Below, piece after piece: positions 5,104-36,136 of a stretch of DNA of 36,237 nt. A program made the position numbers and the translations under genes. The DNA lies in the NCBI RefSeq assembly GCF_015207665.1, contig NZ_JADEWL010000065.1, positions 1-36,237 on the forward strand, given 5' to 3'. The stretch is from Plectonema cf. radiosum LEGE 06105. Its GTDB lineage: Bacteria; Cyanobacteriota; Cyanobacteriia; Cyanobacteriales; Nostocaceae. Every line of letters begins with the position of its first letter. Within the stretch, counting starts at the first letter, position 1. The notes under the pieces were generated by a model that saw only the letters and a program-made list of their open reading frames with translations, searched no databases and had not been told where the DNA came from.

Positions 5104-6248
5104 GTTTAGAGCAAATTCAACAACAGTTGGCTTTGGCTGTTAATCGGGTGATGACAGAAGGTAGCTTGTATGACGAAGAACTTGCAGCCCTTGCGATTAA
5201 ACAATCTTGGGGAGATTTAGTAGAAGCAATATTTTTATTACGAGCATATCGTACTACTCTTGCTCGGTTATATTACAGCGAACCGATAGATACTGAAAAA
5301 ATGCGGGTTCGACGGCGGATTAGTGCCATTTTCAAAGATGTACCCGGAGGACAATGTTTGGGACCAACTTTTGATTATGTCCATCGTTTACTAGATTTTA
5401 AATTAATGGCAGAAGGGGAGGTTCCGACTGCACCGTTAGGAGAAATCAATTCCGAATCGATATCCAGAGTTGTTGATACTTTGAATCAAGAAGGATTGAT
5501 TGAGGATGGGGAGATTAAAGGACAAAGAGACAAGGGGATGGGAGAAAATAAATCAATTCCCAATTACCAATTACCAATTACCAATTCCCCAATATCCAAT
5601 TTTCCCACACCTTACGACATTACTCGTGAACCGCTGACTTTCCCGGCTTCTCGTGATGCGCGATTGCAAAATTTGGCTCGTGCTGATGAGGGTTTTTTAC
5701 TGTCTTTAGCTTATTCTACTCAACGGGGTTATGGAAGAAATCATCCTTTTGCTGGAGAGATTCGCATGGGGGAAGTCGAGGTGGTAATTTGTCCTCCGGA
5801 GTTGGGTTTTGATGTGGTTATAGGAGAAATTACTGTTACTGAGGTGCAGATGGTAAATCAGTTTAAAGGTAGCAAGGATATTCCGGCGCAATTTACTTGT
5901 GGTTATGGATTAACTTTTGGCTATAACGAACGCAAAGCAATGTCGATGGCTCTTATAGATAGAGCGATGCGGGCTTCTGAGTTAGATGAAACGGTAGAAA
6001 GTCCGGCTCAAGATATAGAATTTGTGATGTCTCACTCTGACAATGTTGAAGCTCAAGGTTTTGTACAACATTTAAAATTACCCCATTATATCGATTTTCA
6101 AGCAGAGTTGAATCTGGTGCGAAAAATGCGTCAGGATGCATCGAATAATAAACAAGATAAAGATATTATCGATAAATTCTCTGAAAAAGATTCTGTTTGT
6201 CAAGAGTCCCAGGTTACAAAAAACATGGATATTTCGGAAAATATTTGA
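5004..6248 (+). CDS. phnI: Carbon-phosphorus lyase core subunit PhnI
   Basis: I chose the ATG at 5004 because the protein then begins MPYVAVKGGEKAI, the usual PhnI start, with GGAG upstream as ribosome site; the frame opens earlier at 4875 but those residues are repeat-derived. The protein has 414 residues against about 354 in E. coli. Later motifs YDITREPLTFPASRDARLQ and GYGRNHPFAGEIR are typical. PhnI is the nucleosidase-type subunit that, with PhnG/H/L, attaches the phosphonate to the ribose of ATP. About 35 extra residues (roughly 168-202) are encoded by small repeats, including TTACCAA heptamers kept in frame. The C-terminal tail after about residue 370 is also not typical of the family. 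phnG and phnH, normally directly upstream, are absent. Confidence 0.93.
   Translation: MPYVAVKGGEKAIENAEALLKFLRRGDTDVQELSLEQIQQQLALAVNRVMTEGSLYDEELAALAIKQSWGDLVEAIFLLRAYRTTLARLYYSEPIDTEKMRVRRRISAIFKDVPGGQCLGPTFDYVHRLLDFKLMAEGEVPTAPLGEINSESISRVVDTLNQEGLIEDGEIKGQRDKGMGENKSIPNYQLPITNSPISNFPTPYDITREPLTFPASRDARLQNLARADEGFLLSLAYSTQRGYGRNHPFAGEIRMGEVEVVICPPELGFDVVIGEITVTEVQMVNQFKGSKDIPAQFTCGYGLTFGYNERKAMSMALIDRAMRASELDETVESPAQDIEFVMSHSDNVEAQGFVQHLKLPHYIDFQAELNLVRKMRQDASNNKQDKDIIDKFSEKDSVCQESQVTKNMDISENI
5505..5610. repeat. Repeat-derived in-frame insertion within phnI
   Basis: A stretch rich in GGGGAGA/GACAAGGGGATGGG is followed by about four CCAATTA heptamers, the inverse of the array at 2691. It lies between the conserved EGLIEDG and YDITREPL segments of PhnI and keeps the frame. 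The GGGGAGACAAGGGG part also occurs at about 4916-4931, at the end of the hydrolase gene. Confidence 0.8.
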
Positions 6249-6381
6249 TCAACTATGGAATCAGCAAAATGATTTCAGGTTTGAATCATATTACTTGATC
6301 AAAAAAATAATATACATAAATACGTAATAATATTTGCCCGTATACTTCATGCAAAATTTCACATGATAAATGGTATAATTC

Positions 6382-27988: not shown

Positions 27989-30616
27989 CTAAAAAACCCC
28001 CACCTGCTTCAACTCTAACCCTCGTTCAAATATTTCATCAATAGCCAACATTTCCCCATCAACTGTCATAAATTTATGGTCTTTAGTAGCCTTGATTATT
28101 GAACCATCTTCTAATTCATATTCAAATAGTTCTTGTAATCCTCTATTATGCCATTGTGCTATAGGTTGACTATAAATATTACCATTCTCATCAACGCTGA
28201 AAACTGAACATTCGATTCTTTCTTCAACTATTTTACCTATCGGCATCAAACCATATTCTACAGTTAAAACTTCGGTGTCGGAACTCAAACAATATTCAGC
28301 AAAATTAATCATCTGCTCGAATAATGCTTCAGCAATTTGTTTGTTAACTCCATTTTTCGCGGAACCATCAATGAAAATTTCACGATGTTTCTGCATTTCT
28401 GAAACTTTCTTTTTACCCATGGCACGACGTAGCAAATCCGCTTGTCCGAGGGAATAACCAGCCATGTCTTGAGCAATTTTCATGATTTGTTCTTGATAAA
28501 CCATAATTCCATAGGTTTCATCAAGAATCGGTTCTAAAATATTCGCTTCGTATTCAATTTTTTCTCGACCATGTTTTCTATCAATGAAGTGAGGAATTAA
28601 TCCCGCGTCTAATGGTCCAGGTCGATAAAGCGCTAAAATTGATGAAATATCTTCTATATTTGAAGGTTTCAAATCTCTAACAATTTGCCGCATTCCGGAA
28701 GATTCTAATTGAAATATTCCTTCTAATTCTCCCGCTTCTAATAATTCATAAGTCTTTCTAACATCGTGAGGAAATTTAGCTGTTTCTCCTCCTTTAGCAA
28801 ATATTTTCTGAGCTTTTCTTTCTTGAGAAGTTATATCATAGGGGTCTATTCTATATCCATTCTGCTTTTCTATTAAATCGATAGTTTTGTCAATCATGGT
28901 TAGGTTTCTTAAACCCAAAAAGTCCATTTTTAACAAACCCATTGATTCCAAATCTTCCATGTAATATTGAGTTATTACAGAACCATCATTATTTCTTTGT
29001 AACGGCACAATTTCATCTAAAGGTTCCGCAGAAATTACCACACCCGCAGCATGAACCCCAAAGGTTTTGTTAGTTCCTTCAATGCGTATTGCCATGTCTA
29101 TCCAATGTTTTACCGCTGGATCATTATCATATCTTTCTTTAAATTCTGGTTCCGGAGTATCATCAGCAATCATTTTCTGCAATTTAGCCGGTTTACCCCT
29201 AGCTACAGGAATCAATTTCGCCATTTTATCGGCTTCCCCGTAAGGAATATCTAATACCCTGGCGACATCTTTTAATACCGCTTTAGAAGTTAATCGGTTA
29301 AAAGTAATGATTTGAGCAACCTTATCTTCCCCGTATTGACTAGTTACATAATCAATAACTTTGTCGCGGCTTTCTATACAGAAATCCGTATCAATATCAG
29401 GCATCGATTTTCTTTCTGGGTTCAAGAAACGCTCGAATAATAATCCATGATGTACGGGGTCAATATTAGTAATTCCCATAGAATATGCTACTAAAGAACC
29501 CGCTGCCGAACCTCTTCCTGGTCCCACAGGGATTTTATTGTCACGAGCAAATTTGATGTAGTCCCACACAACTAAAAAGTATGTCGAAAAACCCATCCGC
29601 TGAATCATTTCTAATTCATATTCCAGCCTTTCTTTATAAGTATTATCTATTTCACTACGGGATTTACGATTTAACTTTTGTAATAGTCCCTGCCAAGTTA
29701 CTTCTTCTACATAAGTATCGGCAGTATGACCTGATGGTATAGGAAAATGAGGGATTCTCGGAGAACCTAAAATATCATAAGGTTCGATTTTTTCGGCAAC
29801 TTCTACTGTATTTGTAACGGCTTCTTCTATGACATCTTCTGGTAAATGGTCGCGGAATAATTGCTTCATTTCTTCAGCAGATTTCAGATATTCCGTACCG
29901 CTGTAACGCATTCTTTTATCTTCAAAAATCTTCTTTCCAGTTTGAATGCACAGCAAAGCATCGTGAGCTTCTACATCGTTACAAGAAATATAATGAGAGT
30001 CATTTGTAGCAATTATTTTTATTCCTAATTCTCGCGCAATTTTGACAATTTCCACATTCACAACTCGGTCTTCTTGAGAACCGTGGTCTTGAATTTCTAA
30101 ATAATAATCATCTCCAAATATATCTTGATACCATTTTGCAATGTTTCGTGCTACATCCGGTCTACCGCTGAGAATCGCTTGGGGGACTTCTCCACCCAGA
30201 CAAGCACTGGTAACAATTAAATCTTGGTGATACTGTTCTAATAATTCTTTATTTATACAAGGACGCGAAAAAATCCCTTTTCCCTGCACCCCTTCCAAAT
30301 GAGATATTGTAGTTAATTTAGTTAAATGTTTATAACCACGAGTGTTTTTCGCCAAAACAACCTGATGATACCGGGGACGGCGTTCCTGTTTTGTGATATC
30401 ACCATTAATCACATACATTTCATTCCCGATAATCGGCTGAAAATTCTTACTCCGACAAATTTTGATTAATTCAACCGCACCATACATCACTCCATGATCC
30501 GTTAGCGCGATCGCCTTCATTCCCAGTTCAATAGCACGATCTATCAAAGCTGGTAACTGAGAGGCACCATCTAGCAAGCTATAGTCGCTATGAATGTGTA
30601 AAGGTACAAAGGACAT
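27989..30616 (-). CDS. dnaE: DNA polymerase III alpha, N-terminal half with split intein N-part
   Basis: Residues 1-775 are the N-terminal DnaE part: PHP domain start [26 protein letters not shown], and the catalytic PDIDTDF near 406-412. Residues 776-875 are the IntN half of the cyanobacterial split intein, beginning [14 protein letters not shown]. The C-terminal half of DnaE with IntC is a separate gene in such organisms, and the two join by trans-splicing to make the working replicase. The junction reads NFAEY/CLSS, matching the known site. The IntN here ends ELKQVGVF, slightly different from Nostoc punctiforme. Confidence 0.97.
27992..28291 (-). other. DnaE split intein N-fragment (IntN)
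   Basis: The 100 codons after AEY start with the nucleophile Cys776 and contain block A ([14 protein letters not shown]) and block B ([14 protein letters not shown] with TxxH). This matches Npu DnaE IntN in size and motif order. It needs IntC from a distant locus. Confidence 0.95.
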
Positions 30617-31723: not shown

Positions 31724-32101
31724 TTAATAATGATTCCCTGCTTTACGACGGTGAATCGCGGTAACTGTATCCGGTTGCAGCAATTTACCATTATCAACTG
31801 TTGCATATATTACCCAGTGGTCGCCGCATTCCATACGTTTACTTGCAGAACATTCCAAATAGGCTGTAGCATCGGTGAGAATAATACCACCATTATCGGC
31901 TGATGCTGTGGGGAAGTTGGTAAAACGGTCTTCACCCGGAGCAAAAGATTTACGGAAGTGCTTTACGTAATCTTGTTGATTGCCTTCACCGATAATATTT
32001 AAAACAAACTTACTTCCAGGATACAGCAAGTTTTCCACCGCTCTATCTTTGGCGATCGCCAAGCTAATTCCCGGTGGGTCGAAGGTTGCTTGTGTCACCC
32101 A
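31724..32101 (-). CDS. flv1: flv1 3' part (flavin reductase domain), split from its 5' part
   Basis: From WVTQATFDPPG to HRRKAGNHY (about 125 residues) this is the C-terminal flavin-reductase-like domain of a cyanobacterial flavodiiron protein: AIAKDRAVENLLYPGSKFVLNI, YVKHFRKSFAPGEDRF and MECGDHWVIYATV. The open frame extends upstream to an ATG at 32167, but those 22 residues come from the inserted element. The matching N-terminal part is 2.7 kb away on the same strand. Joining at TGGGT makes one 569-residue Flv1-type protein. As it stands, this half has no native start. Confidence 0.93.
   Translation of the reverse strand, partial: WVTQATFDPPGISLAIAKDRAVENLLYPGSKFVLNIIGEGNQQDYVKHFRKSFAPGEDRFTNFPTASADNGGIILTDATAYLECSASKRMECGDHWVIYATVDNGKLLQPDTVTAIHRRKAGNHY
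32091..32101. repeat. Left recombination site TGTGTCACCCA
   Basis: It shares 9 of 11 bases, at the same spacing, with the right site (TGTGNNACCCA). A second ACCCA overlaps at 32101-32105, but only the one at 32097-32101 restores the flv1 frame. Confidence 0.85.
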
Positions 32102-32165
32102 CCCAGTAGACAACCACAATTCGTGATTGTAAATTGAGTAGAACAACTTATTCAGATACCATATC

Positions 32166-33647
32166 ATGGCTAAAGTAATATGGGCTTACTGTCGCGTATC
32201 AACAAAAGAACAAGCGTACTCTGTAGAAGAATCTTTGAGTACTCAAATTAATCGCTGTCGTCTTTATGGTGCTTCTCGAACTTACTTCGATATCGATAAA
32301 AGAACTAAAGATATGCGTCCGGGTTTAGCTCAATTGCTCGAAGATATCGAAAACTCAAAGCCGGGTGATATCGATGAGTTAGTATTTACACGATTAGACC
32401 GCGTAGCATCATCGCCAGTAACTTTTTACACTCTTCTAGCTGCGCTAAAAAAAAAGAAGATAAAACCCGTAGCTATGGATGACTCCCTTGATTTAGAAAG
32501 CGTGGGGGGAGAGTTATCTGCCGATATTCGATTAGCTGTTAGTAAACATGAGATTCAAATGTTAGGTCTGCGAATTCGTAAATCTCTAGAATATCGGCGC
32601 TCTCAAGGAATCCCTCACCCGAAAATGCCGTTTGGTTACGTGTTAATCGATGATGATTACGCATTCGATTACACACCCGTCCTTTGTCATCTCGAAGATA
32701 AACGCGAATACTCAGTTCACGATATAGTCACAATGGTTTTCAAAGCATTTAGCGAAACTCATAGTATTCGTGGGACATCTCATTGGGTAACTAATTACTT
32801 CGGGTTGTACCACGGGGTGGAACGCAACAAACAACGTCAATCTCACATAGTCGAAGGTAACGCTGATATCAAGTTACCAATAAAACAAAATATAGGGAAA
32901 CGATTTCCACATTGTACGCTTAGATTTTCATCAACTATGATTTCCTATATGCTCAAGAACCTGGCATACGCAGGGAACCCAGATACTAGATTTGAACATG
33001 ATAAACCTTATATATCCCATATTCAATATCAGAAAAACCAAGAAATAATAAAGAAAAATAAGTGTAATCCTAAGAGCGATCGCACTCGTAATCAAAATGA
33101 ATACTCAGGTAAAATAAGGTGCGCTATATGTGATGGCACAGTCTCAAGAACGTTTCAACCCGGTAGAAAACAACCATATTACTTTTGTCGCGCTGCTAAA
33201 GTTGATGGACACTGTACCAATAAAAAATTCATCGCGAAGTCAAATTTAGAGAAACAAGTTGTAAAACAATTAAAAGATAGTGCTGTCACTTTAGCTAAAC
33301 GAACGCTAACTTTTCAAAAACGAGAAGATATTTCTGAGACATCGGAAGTTAAAAAATTAAAATCTCAAATAAACGCACTAAAACAAATCACACCCTCTAG
33401 TGTTGAAATAGAAGATGTGATTAAGAGTCTTCAAATTAAACTAGAAAGGGAGTTGGTCAAAACTATAGAAGTTAAATCGGATAACGAAGTATTACTTCGC
33501 GATTTTATTAGCGCCTTCAGTTATCTAGATAATGAAATGTGGGATAACTTTAGCGTTCTAGACAAAATTAAATTAATTGACTTGTATGTTGACTTTATCT
33601 CGTTGGGTATGGATAAAATCGTTAGAGTTAACTTGAGAATCAATTAA
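32166..33647 (+). CDS. XisF-like large serine recombinase
   Basis: The 493-residue protein begins AKVIWAYCRVSTKEQ with catalytic Ser12, followed by LVFTRLDRVASSP with the conserved arginines and ADIRLAVSKHEIQMLG. A recombinase domain (IRKSLEYRRSQGIPHPKMPFGY) and a zinc ribbon (CAICDG...FCRAAKVDGHC near 320-350) follow, then a coiled coil (EVKKLKSQINALKQ) near 390-430. This is the XisF/large serine recombinase layout. It is complete and reads away from the left end, its ATG 65 bases inside the site. It most likely excises the element from flv1. An excision cofactor is probably needed. Confidence 0.93.
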   Translation: MAKVIWAYCRVSTKEQAYSVEESLSTQINRCRLYGASRTYFDIDKRTKDMRPGLAQLLEDIENSKPGDIDELVFTRLDRVASSPVTFYTLLAALKKKKIKPVAMDDSLDLESVGGELSADIRLAVSKHEIQMLGLRIRKSLEYRRSQGIPHPKMPFGYVLIDDDYAFDYTPVLCHLEDKREYSVHDIVTMVFKAFSETHSIRGTSHWVTNYFGLYHGVERNKQRQSHIVEGNADIKLPIKQNIGKRFPHCTLRFSSTMISYMLKNLAYAGNPDTRFEHDKPYISHIQYQKNQEIIKKNKCNPKSDRTRNQNEYSGKIRCAICDGTVSRTFQPGRKQPYYFCRAAKVDGHCTNKKFIAKSNLEKQVVKQLKDSAVTLAKRTLTFQKREDISETSEVKKLKSQINALKQITPSSVEIEDVIKSLQIKLERELVKTIEVKSDNEVLLRDFISAFSYLDNEMWDNFSVLDKIKLIDLYVDFISLGMDKIVRVNLRIN

Positions 33648-33752
33648 CTTTTGATTTCGCTTTTCTTTAGTTGCTTTAATAATTTGAATGATGCGGTTCG
33701 CAAACTCCCAATCAGATTCAAACTGTATATCTGCTTGTTGTTGTAGTGTCAT
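33573..33752 (-). CDS. Possible small protein at the recombinase 3' end
   Basis: A 59-codon frame from MTLQQQADIQFESDWEF to IQVN, convergent with and overlapping the recombinase by 75 bases. The first 40 residues look protein-like (FANRIIQIIKATKEKRNQKL). The tail lies in recombinase coding sequence, and the start sits right after a hairpin. Support is weak. Confidence 0.3.
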   Translation of the reverse strand: MTLQQQADIQFESDWEFANRIIQIIKATKEKRNQKLIDSQVNSNDFIHTQRDKVNIQVN

Positions 33753-33755
33753 AAA

Positions 33756-33805
33756 AAAAAATGTAGCGCTTATTCTAATCATAGAGACTACACGCTACAT
33801 TTTTT
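33756..33805. terminator. Bidirectional hairpin with A/T runs after the recombinase
   Basis: AAAAAATGTAGCG and CGCTACATTTTTT are perfect 13-base arms with a 24-base interior, about 110 bases past the recombinase stop. The outer A/T runs suit termination of the rightward recombinase transcript and of leftward transcripts from the small genes. Confidence 0.65.
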
Positions 33806-33836
33806 GTTTGAAATAATCAATTATTTAGTATAAAAA

Positions 33837-33947
33837 TTATTCAGTTTTAACCATTAGCGCTTTCACTTCGTTCATCCAACGGGTAAATTGATTTCGCTGT
33901 TTGGGAGGTATTGTTTTCGCCACAATATCAACTGCATCCCCAAGCAT
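33837..33947 (-). CDS. Tiny frame following the 87-residue gene (possible frameshifted end)
   Basis: The 36 codons read MLGDAVDIVAKTIPPKQRN then QFTRWMNEVKALMVKTE, very protein-like. It starts 3 bases past the upstream stop and in the same direction. Its frame stays open back into the upstream gene (PQ/SCLEMLGDAV), so the two may be one 120-residue protein broken by a frameshift, or a coupled pair. Function unknown; within the element an excision factor role is possible but unproven. Confidence 0.5.
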   Translation of the reverse strand: MLGDAVDIVAKTIPPKQRNQFTRWMNEVKALMVKTE

Positions 33948-33949
33948 CT

Positions 33950-34213
33950 CTAAGCAACTTGGGGCAGGGATTTTCCCTCAAGTAAAGCCAACCTCCTATC
34001 TAACGATTGCAAAGTATCCAATAAAGGTTTTGTTTCCGTTGGTGATATATCTAACGGTTTTGTTTCCGCAGCACCATCAATCAAAGATTTAACAACATCA
34101 TTTAAATCTTGTTTTGAAAACTCCTCGGATAGCAACCCACTTGCTATCAGTTTCAAAACTAGTTCGTTTGATATTCGGAATTGAATCAATCTACGGTCTG
34201 TGTCGAATTTCAT
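33950..34213 (-). CDS. Small element protein, possible DNA-binding factor
   Basis: Starting at MKFDTDRRLIQFRISNELV (an ATG 54 bases upstream is also in frame, but its residues look non-native), the 87-residue protein begins with a short strand plus helices (LVLKLIASGLLSEEFSKQDL), faintly like ribbon-helix-helix proteins. It continues with a repetitive TETKPL linker and LDRRLALLEGK. It is transcribed toward the recombinase and away from the CGTTACG motif block. I do not recognise the family. Confidence 0.5.
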   Translation of the reverse strand: MKFDTDRRLIQFRISNELVLKLIASGLLSEEFSKQDLNDVVKSLIDGAAETKPLDISPTETKPLLDTLQSLDRRLALLEGKSLPQVA

Positions 34214-34240
34214 AGTACTTATTATATCCACACCCCAACT

Positions 34241-34640
34241 GTATACGAACAACGTAACGAGCGACAACGCATAAACGATGTAAATAGGTAAGGCTAGAAT
34301 CCATAAGTTAATTCGTTACGCTATCCGTATACAAAAAAATTCCGGTATGCGTTACGGCAAGAACAGGAACCGACACAACACTATTTAAAGGTTAACGGAA
34401 CGTAAAGTTACCATGCAACAGCAGATATCTCAATCCATTGCGATCGCCCCTCCGGGGCGCGTGCCGATCGCGATTCTCTCGAAAGCGGAAACCTAATGTT
34501 TTACATCGATCAATCAATTTAGTCTATCTTGAATTGTCGGAATTACTTTTTTTGTGTGGGGTGTGTTTTCGTTTTCCCCTCACACTTCAATCGTAACGCA
34601 GACCGTTACGGTATGCGTACGGATAACGTAACGGATAAAC
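34241..34640. repeat. Cluster of CGTTACG/CGTAACG motifs in the element
   Basis: Six copies of the 7-mer or its complement: near 34253-34259, 34314-34320, 34350-34356, 34592-34598, 34604-34610 and 34627-34633. Several have GTATAC or GTATGCG nearby. The pair at 34604-34634 forms an inverted repeat around GTATGCGTACGG. A HIP1-type hairpin (GCGATCGCCCCTCCGGGGCG) lies between at about 34440. The region to 34765 has no gene, and the motifs look like protein-binding sites. Confidence 0.7.
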
Positions 34641-34793
34641 TTATACTAATTCAATATTTAATAATGACGTAGGTTTATAGGTTTACGTGACTACAAAAAA
34701 ACACCCCACATACTATGCAAAGGTTGAGTCATACATAATCATTTTGTTTTCGAGATAAATATCGGTTAGTTATTGACTACTGCAAAGGGTGTA

Positions 34794-34804
34794 TGTGAAA
34801 CCCA
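34794..34804. repeat. Right recombination site TGTGAAACCCA
   Basis: Partner of the left site. The TGTGAA half is inside the element, while the GGAACC after ACCCA belongs to flv1 codons for GS. Confidence 0.85.
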
Positions 34805-36136
34805 GGAACCAAGCATTCCAGTGGTAACTTCTCCGTGTTTTGCTGTAAGAACACAAACAGAACCAACGATACGTCCCACGGCTTGTTCCATAGGAGTTGC
34901 AGCGGGTTGAGTTAAACGTAATTTACGAGCTTTTCTCAAAGTTTGAGCGAAATCAGTTGCTGTTTCTTCGCATTCCTTGAGAGTTTTATCGGATGGTTTA
35001 AATCTAGCTTTGAAGGTGTCGAAACCAAATTTAAATCCTGCATCCCGCAGTTTACCTTCAATTAAATCAAATGCTTCACCACTCCAACCATAGGAACCAA
35101 ATACACCAGCAAGTTTACCTATATCACCAACTGTAAGTACAATACCCAAAGCAGTGTGAATCGGAGTCGGTGCATTACCACCAATGGTGGGAGAACCGAT
35201 GATAAAACCGTCTGATTTTTCAATAGCAGCCCGAATTTCATCTGGTTGAGCAAATTCACAGTTAATCGACTCTACAGCTACCCCACCTTTAGTTAAACCT
35301 AAACCGAATGCTTGAGCCAAAGTAGAAGTATTACCGTATGCTGAAGCGTAAAGTAAGGCAACGGTAACTTCACGCTCAGTTTGAGAAACACTCCAGTGTT
35401 GATAAGCTTTGTTGAGTTCAATTAAACCGTAACGTACCAAAGGCCCGTGAACACTAGCATACATTCTCACCGGCATTTCGGAAAGTTTTTCCAAAGCCGC
35501 TTTTACATGAGATGCATGGGGAGCCATCAAGCAGTCATAATAGTAGCGCTGGTCTTCTTTTAAAATGTCCCAGTCTTCATCAAATACTTCTTCACCGCAG
35601 ACATGAGCGCCAAATAATTTATTCGAGTAGAGAATTTGGGTTTGCTGGTCGTAAGTAACAAGTCCGCTTGGCCAGCGGGGACTCGGAATCGGAATAGCTT
35701 TTAAAACGTGTCCCTGCCCTAAATCAAGGGTTTCTTTACCCCGCATTTCCATCACTTGTACCTGTTCACCAACAGCAGTACGCAGATTGGCGGCAGCAGG
35801 AACCGAGCAAACAAAAGTTAACTGTGGAGCGCGTTCTAAAAGTGCTTTGAGAGTAGCGACGCGGTTGGGATTAAAATGTCCGATAATTACATAATCCAAC
35901 TTTTGAAAATCCAAGACATTCTGCAACGCTTCGATATAAATTTGGGTAAAAGTTTCCGGAGGTGGATCGATAAGTGCAGTTTTATCACCTTCAATTAAAT
36001 AACAATTAGAAGTAGTTCCTTTAGCCAAAGCATATTCAATTTCAAATCGCAGCCGCGTCCAACTGCGAGACCGAATTAACGTAGTATTGGTCGCAATAGA
36101 TGCAATCTGCACGTCGCGGGGATTGGAATTTGTCAT
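34800..36136 (-). CDS. flv1: flv1 5' part (lactamase-like and flavodoxin domains)
   Basis: Residues 1-446 encode the metallo-beta-lactamase-like domain, the flavodoxin domain (VALLYASAYGNTSTLAQAF, GSYGWSGEAFDLIEG) and the first part of the flavin reductase domain (AVGRIVGSVCVLTAK, GMLGSWV). The canonical diiron ligands are replaced (GHFNPNR where active FDPs have HxExDH), which is the Flv1 and not the Flv3 type. In cyanobacteria Flv1/Flv3 reduce oxygen to water, and Flv1B/Flv3B are heterocyst-specific. In the unexcised state translation would go 10 residues into the element (SHTPFAVVNN) and stop at 34766. Upstream gene and promoter lie mostly beyond the window. Confidence 0.93.

Follow-up and report, generated by a model that had tools for sequence, protein, structure and literature searches.

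The nifD and hupL elements (xisA, xisC), whose developmental excision restores a heterocyst gene, carry tyrosine recombinases, enzymes unrelated to the XisF type. The fdxN element of Anabaena PCC 7120 (xisF, xisH, xisI), in contrast, combines an XisF recombinase with short direct repeats. Hilton, Meeks and Zehr (2016) have compiled 22 interrupted gene groups, and Table 1 of their survey has flv3B and hglE and no flv1B (PMC4874684); since flv3B is entered with two elements, a flavodiiron host gene has already been catalogued. Here we describe an interruption element of 2703 base pairs (bp) in flv1B of Plectonema cf. radiosum LEGE 06105, located in a stretch of 36,237 nucleotides (contig NZ_JADEWL010000065.1, positions 1 to 36,237 of the forward strand), which we call the window. 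This element is a further case of a known kind, with a host gene that we have not found reported before: among the literature matches listed, judged by titles and the starts of abstracts, there is no paper on an element in flv1B. We consider it probable that its XisF-type recombinase excises a 2703-bp circle at the flanking repeats and restores flv1B in developing heterocysts.

Comparison with the described systems shows both kinship and distance. Like the fdxN element, the flv1B element encodes a member of the XisF equivalog and is bounded by short direct repeats, but the fdxN element is far longer, and the recombinases beside nifS-like genes in two relatives are 32-33% identical to that of the flv1B element. 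The flv3B elements, according to PMC4874684, also have a serine recombinase and reside in a heterocyst flavodiiron gene of the same flv3b-flv1b operon. Their host, however, is flv3B, the break lies near residue 128-131 in relatives as opposed to 445-446 of flv1B, and the recombinases of the flv3B elements in relatives are 34-38% identical to the one described here.

Anatomy and identity of the interrupted gene

The gene, the element and its recombinase are arranged as follows (coordinates of the window):

31724-32101, minus strand: flv1B 3' part with the flavin reductase domain (Pfam), one repeat copy included
32097-32101: left direct repeat ACCCA (TGGGT on the gene strand), in an imperfect 11-bp copy at 32091-32101
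32097-34799: interruption element, 2703 bp, as delimited by the empty site in a relative
32166-33647, plus strand: XisF-type serine recombinase of 493 amino acids (aa), opposite to flv1B and adjoining its 3' part
34800-34804: right direct repeat ACCCA, in an imperfect 11-bp copy at 34794-34804
34800-36136, minus strand: flv1B 5' part, coding for residues 1-445 of the joined protein, plus two bases of codon 446

The gene starts at 36136, and the frame of its 5' part, which comprises the ODP beta-lactamase and flavodoxin domains (Pfam), continues into the element as far as 34766, giving 456 aa in total. Deletion of 32097-34799 (2703 bp) between the ACCCA repeats yields a single flv1B open reading frame (ORF) of 569 aa with 0 stops. 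The initial annotation had described a split flv1-type gene with a recombinase between its halves, 5-bp repeats and a restored frame of 569 codons, and all of these were recovered where it had placed them. Because 10 of the 23 common words of at least four bases around both junctions restore some open frame, frame restoration by itself is weak evidence, and we rejected it as the sole proof of the joint. The joint is settled by homology, since no offset other than 2703 bp, with the joint at SWV[S/T]QATF, yields a protein that matches the relatives in length and sequence, and all 40 cyanobacterial relatives read through this point. An overlapping ACCCA at 32101-32105 was discarded as the core: its 2699-bp offset is no multiple of three, and the left end of the element in Richelia sp. 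SL_2_1 (G188) fixes the register. ACCCA is the perfect core of an imperfect 11-bp repeat (TGTGTCACCCA at 32091-32101, TGTGAAACCCA at 34794-34804). The crossover may also lie in the TGTG part of this repeat, in which case residue 447 would be S447, the state of the nearest relatives, and not T447.

The relatives stem from a homology search that returned 42 loci, 40 of them cyanobacterial flavodiiron genes; two weak matches from other organisms (L046, L047) were dropped. In 39 of the 40, the alignment with the joined protein is unbroken as far as the end of the protein (60.8-97.5% identity; from residue 4 in L044), and the 40th, L006, is continuous to residue 486, beyond the joint, where its contig ends. 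All 40 homologues are continuous across the joint that the initial annotation had placed at WV/TQ. At a threshold of 1e-8 the recombinase was not found in any of the 40 loci, some of which are short. The nearest full-length relative, with 97.5% identity, is L007 from the metagenome-assembled genome of Rivularia sp. T60_A2020_040 (G189); its empty site reads GAAACCCAGGAAC on the plus strand.

The recombinase passes the NCBIfam XisF equivalog (NF041201 recomb_XisF, 456 bits versus a cut-off of 375), in agreement with the XisF-like assignment made at the outset. Its frame is intact and includes the Pfam domains Resolvase (3.8e-18) and zinc ribbon (1.1e-9). The only solved structural relative at 0.001 is the N-terminal part of the TP901-1 integrase. 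The placement of the recombinase gene, against the direction of flv1B and by its 3' part, fits the orientation rule given in PMC4874684.

Similarity and gene order agree on the identity of the host gene. The genome of LEGE 06105 has five flavodiiron matches, and over the 5' part the gene in the window is 64% identical to the next one. A further flavodiiron gene, whole or partial, stands directly upstream of flv1B in 36 of the 40 relatives, and in the remaining four the locus starts where the contig starts or ends; the flv3b-flv1b order is described as always kept (PMC4390876). The flv3B gene of LEGE 06105 (L004, 572 aa) is intact and 98.9% identical to the flv3B adjoining flv1B in L007. It lies at an edge of contig C184; the window contig (C47) ends about 100 bp before flv1B. 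Since each gene stands at a contig edge, we infer that the two are adjacent in this genome as well. By similarity (nearest Flv1 paralogues) and by the position that it takes behind flv3B in the relatives, the host gene is flv1B, the heterocyst-type gene proposed initially.

Distribution and both junction states in Richelia sp. SL_2_1

A search of 217 genomes of the family with the flv1B 5' part gave 150 matches, one per genome, and the other 67 genomes were searched separately. In 148 of the 150 matches the frame is open for at least 569 codons; the exceptions are the genome of the window (461) and G188 (491, at a contig end). No row's frame ends at the joint in the 67 further genomes. At this flv1B site the element is therefore seen in two of the 217 genomes, that of the window and G188. 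Single flavodiiron matches in G036, G178 and G081 may be flv1A, leaving three genomes without a clear flv1B row, and the row of G081, considered as an interrupted flv1B, simply stops at its contig end. G157 and G183 were likewise rejected as carriers: their frame breaks concern flv1A and have no insert. In G157 (L161, G157:C1:1398000-1410000) the break lies at about 7200, near residue 407-413. Partial flv1 rows were found in G165, with one stop, and in G029, without the 5' end and with a frame that runs past the joint.

In G188, the gene is present in two states. On contig C143 (L006) of this metagenome-assembled genome flv1B passes the joint, and the sequence breaks off 127 bp beyond the start of TGGGT; contig C55 has the flv1B 3' part followed by the element. 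The joined and the interrupted contig have exactly 127 bp in common, ending at the ACCCA repeat, and we read this overlap as a fork in an assembly graph with k = 127, a k value deduced from the overlap. Since C143 and C55 share exactly 127 bp, joined and interrupted molecules were probably present in one read set, a situation that fits excision and a strain mixture alike. From the two junctions in this assembly it is likely that the element is excisable. Its sequence in G188 is 92.9% identical to that of the window over 1415 bp, with the same left junction and repeat.

In the tree, G188 clusters with G189 (L007), whose site is empty, and the window falls outside, so the element was either lost in the G189 line or gained twice. 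G189 gave no match to the recombinase at 1e-60, and its matches to the element are all short.

The sister element, the recombinase family and the small ORFs

The genome of LEGE 06105 holds a second element of this type. On contig C101 (L090) we found a recombinase 72% identical to that of the flv1B element, within a sister element of 3043 bp (L090, G000:C101, 10398-13443) in an hglE-like gene, a name that rests on our own reading of acyl carrier protein repeats and a ketoreductase part. Removal of 3043 bp at a GGG repeat (L090 10398/13441) gives an hglE-like stretch of the relatives' length; a TACA junction gave the wrong frame and an ACAAC junction the wrong length. G188 and G189 have the hglE-like gene without the insert, the G188 frame having a stop shortly upstream. 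An hglE element is also listed in Table 1 of PMC4874684. While the sister element differs from the flv1B element in length and repeat, the two have three small minus-strand ORFs and the terminal motif CAGTAGACAA in common. A low-complexity ORF of 217 aa lies between two ketoreductase-like frames at L090 8740-9393. We had suspected a second interruption of the hglE-like gene at L090 8640-9700, but G188 and G189 align through this region, and because their layout is the same it probably represents ordinary gene order.

Recombinase matches at 1e-60 or better occur in 35 of the 217 family genomes, LEGE 06105 included. We viewed 23 recombinase loci in larger stretches, namely 20 such matches together with L090 and L092 of LEGE 06105 and L127 of G188, where the recombinase is broken. 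A part of flv3B is present in 10 of the 23; in nine it is the N-terminal part, which adjoins the recombinase and in seven of these cases stops at residue 128-131. L133 has the flv3B C-terminal part as well, on the other side of the recombinase, and L128 has the C-terminal part only, which may be unconnected with its recombinase. The C-terminal part of nifK adjoins the recombinase at seven of the 23 loci and a nifS-like gene at two (the fdxN region by eye); nif gene names were read from translations, without a family search. As its relatives adjoin flv3B, nifK and nifS-like genes, the recombinase is one of those already known from interruption elements in heterocyst genes.

Two of the 40 flv1B relatives, L012 and L018 (G085 and G025 by contig coordinates), have only the flv3B C-terminal part, from about residue 131, next to flv1B, and the N-terminal part lies with a recombinase on other contigs (L129, L131). 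The flv3B genes of G085 and G025 seem to carry large elements. At L092 (G000:C316, 6707-10856) LEGE 06105 has two more recombinases, one by a nifK-like C-terminal part and one immediately behind a nifE-like frame that is truncated, and each seems to mark another interruption element.

The remaining features of the flv1B element are its terminal motifs, an inverted repeat and the small ORFs:

32104-32114, plus strand: left terminal motif CAGTAGACAAC, the same motif as at the left end of the sister and G188 elements
33615-33752, minus strand: small ORF of 46 aa, conserved in the sister element in the hglE-like gene (53-55% identity)
33753-33808: inverted repeat with 24-nucleotide arms and an 8-nucleotide spacer, separating the recombinase from the ORFs of 36 and 87 aa
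33840-33947, minus strand: small ORF of 36 aa, with 86% identity to its counterpart in the sister element
33953-34213, minus strand: small ORF of 87 aa within a 105-aa frame, with 38-40% identity to its counterpart in the sister element
34772-34782, minus strand: right terminal motif CAGTAGTCAAT, an inverted and imperfect copy of the left motif

In the right half of the element, several inverted repeats at 34240-34644 contain the word CGTAACG. The 36-aa ORF is more conserved between the two elements than the recombinase (86% versus 72%). A 23-residue relative of it is found in G188 close to a nifH-like fragment; this remnant (L127, G188:C305, about 6096-6341) lies near the fragment and the broken serine recombinase (by eye), and the locus looks like a decayed nifH element. 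In the libraries searched, which differed between the small ORFs, the 46-aa ORF has no usable family (best PHROGs match 0.013), nor has the 87-aa ORF, whose best NCBIfam match (0.001) is a sigma-factor model with 19 bits versus a cut-off of 266. Pfam gave no match for the minus-strand frames of 105 and 69 aa. A search for the 87-aa ORF in six genomes of the genus gave no match, a weak negative, as the G188 assembly is without that part of the element. Elsewhere in the window, an 875-aa frame at 27989-30616 (minus strand) reads by eye as the N-terminal half of DnaE, ending in the N part of a split intein.

Proposed excision in heterocysts and competing readings

In the process we propose, the recombinase would bind both ends of the element, strand exchange within the direct repeat would release the 2703-bp circle, and flv1B would become whole in developing heterocysts, while vegetative cells would keep the element and pass it on. 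That excision occurs specifically in heterocysts is likely by analogy, given the element family and the location of Flv1B in Anabaena PCC 7120, where Flv1B and Flv3B are reported exclusively from heterocysts (PMC4390876). The initial annotation went further and had excision switch on oxygen removal. This is not supported: according to the same source, Flv3B reduces O2 in Anabaena heterocysts, an flv1B mutant has no defect in growth or O2 uptake, and the role of Flv1B is given as unknown; moreover, flv3B of LEGE 06105 is intact. Since flv1B is needed only in a terminal cell type, the element costs little, and it probably persists through tolerance and without a purpose, not through regulating oxygen removal.

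Several observations weigh against developmental excision. In the genome of LEGE 06105 we found no excised form; the flv1B 5' part occurs once, interrupted. G188 holds only the first 1415 bp of the element, plus matches of at most 71 bp elsewhere, and its recombinase frame has two 1-base deletions. Assembly of the whole element would be expected if most cells carried it, so the G188 form may belong to a minority strain, have decayed or lie in a stretch of low coverage. The recombinase genes of window and G188 are mosaic: at about 32317-32676 there are 43-53 identical bases per 60-bp block, and downstream of about 32676 there are 55-60 (about 98%). Exchange between recombinase gene copies is likely, and because of this mosaic structure descent at the flv1B site is not simply vertical. 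Furthermore, whereas the fdxN element needs XisH and XisI (PMC4874684), neither was found inside the flv1B element by Pfam on the 105- and 69-aa frames and by genome-wide matches, the Pfam scan not including the 36-aa ORF. The genome has 14 XisH and 16 XisI matches, none on contig C47, and action of these proteins on the flv1B element in trans is possible.

The strongest competing explanation is that a mobile XisF-type element sits in a dispensable flv1B and undergoes no developmental excision, with carrier and non-carrier strains coexisting. Its detection at the flv1B site in only two of 217 genomes, the incomplete assembly in G188 with the two deletions in the recombinase, the mosaic suggestive of exchange between copies, and the wild-type growth of the Anabaena flv1B mutant (PMC4390876) all speak for it. 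Nevertheless, both known carriers have the insertion site and repeat in common, the joined frame is intact, and the flv1B codons on either side are under strong pairwise constraint, with ratios of nonsynonymous to synonymous substitution (dN/dS) of 0.045 (window versus L007) and 0.048 (window versus G188). These ratios also cover the time before insertion and are no proof of selection since then. On balance we regard this explanation as unlikely.

Far less credible is that the halves act separately, one as a flavodiiron-like protein of two domains and the other as a free flavin reductase domain, so that excision would change nothing. Each half does have Pfam domains and an open frame that begins with ATG, the ATG of the 3' part lying inside the element. 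However, the 5' frame stops 10 codons past the joint in element sequence, no other listed genome of the family is split there, and the joined form is present in G188. Finally, that the assembly of this 323-contig draft falsely joined flv1B to an unrelated element is so improbable as to be negligible, because G188 assembles the same left junction and repeat at 92.9% identity over 1415 bp.

Excision of the XisF-type element from flv1B in developing heterocysts thus remains our preferred reading, and flv1B joins the list of genes that removable elements interrupt. In the heterocyst flavodiiron operon, flv3B and flv1B are both targets of related recombinases, each at a different position. One might speculate, though we think it rather doubtful, that flv3b-flv1b is a repeated target of the XisF family, and that a compact family swapped XisH and XisI for small proteins of its own, one of them setting the direction of recombination, its copies having spread among the heterocyst genes of one genome and been tuned to the same developmental signal. 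The part of XisH and XisI in deciding excision is called unclear in PMC4874684. Two sister elements in one genome, together with the conserved small ORFs, provide a compact system for seeking the factor that decides excision, and the empty-site relatives and the one relative with both forms make the element testable.

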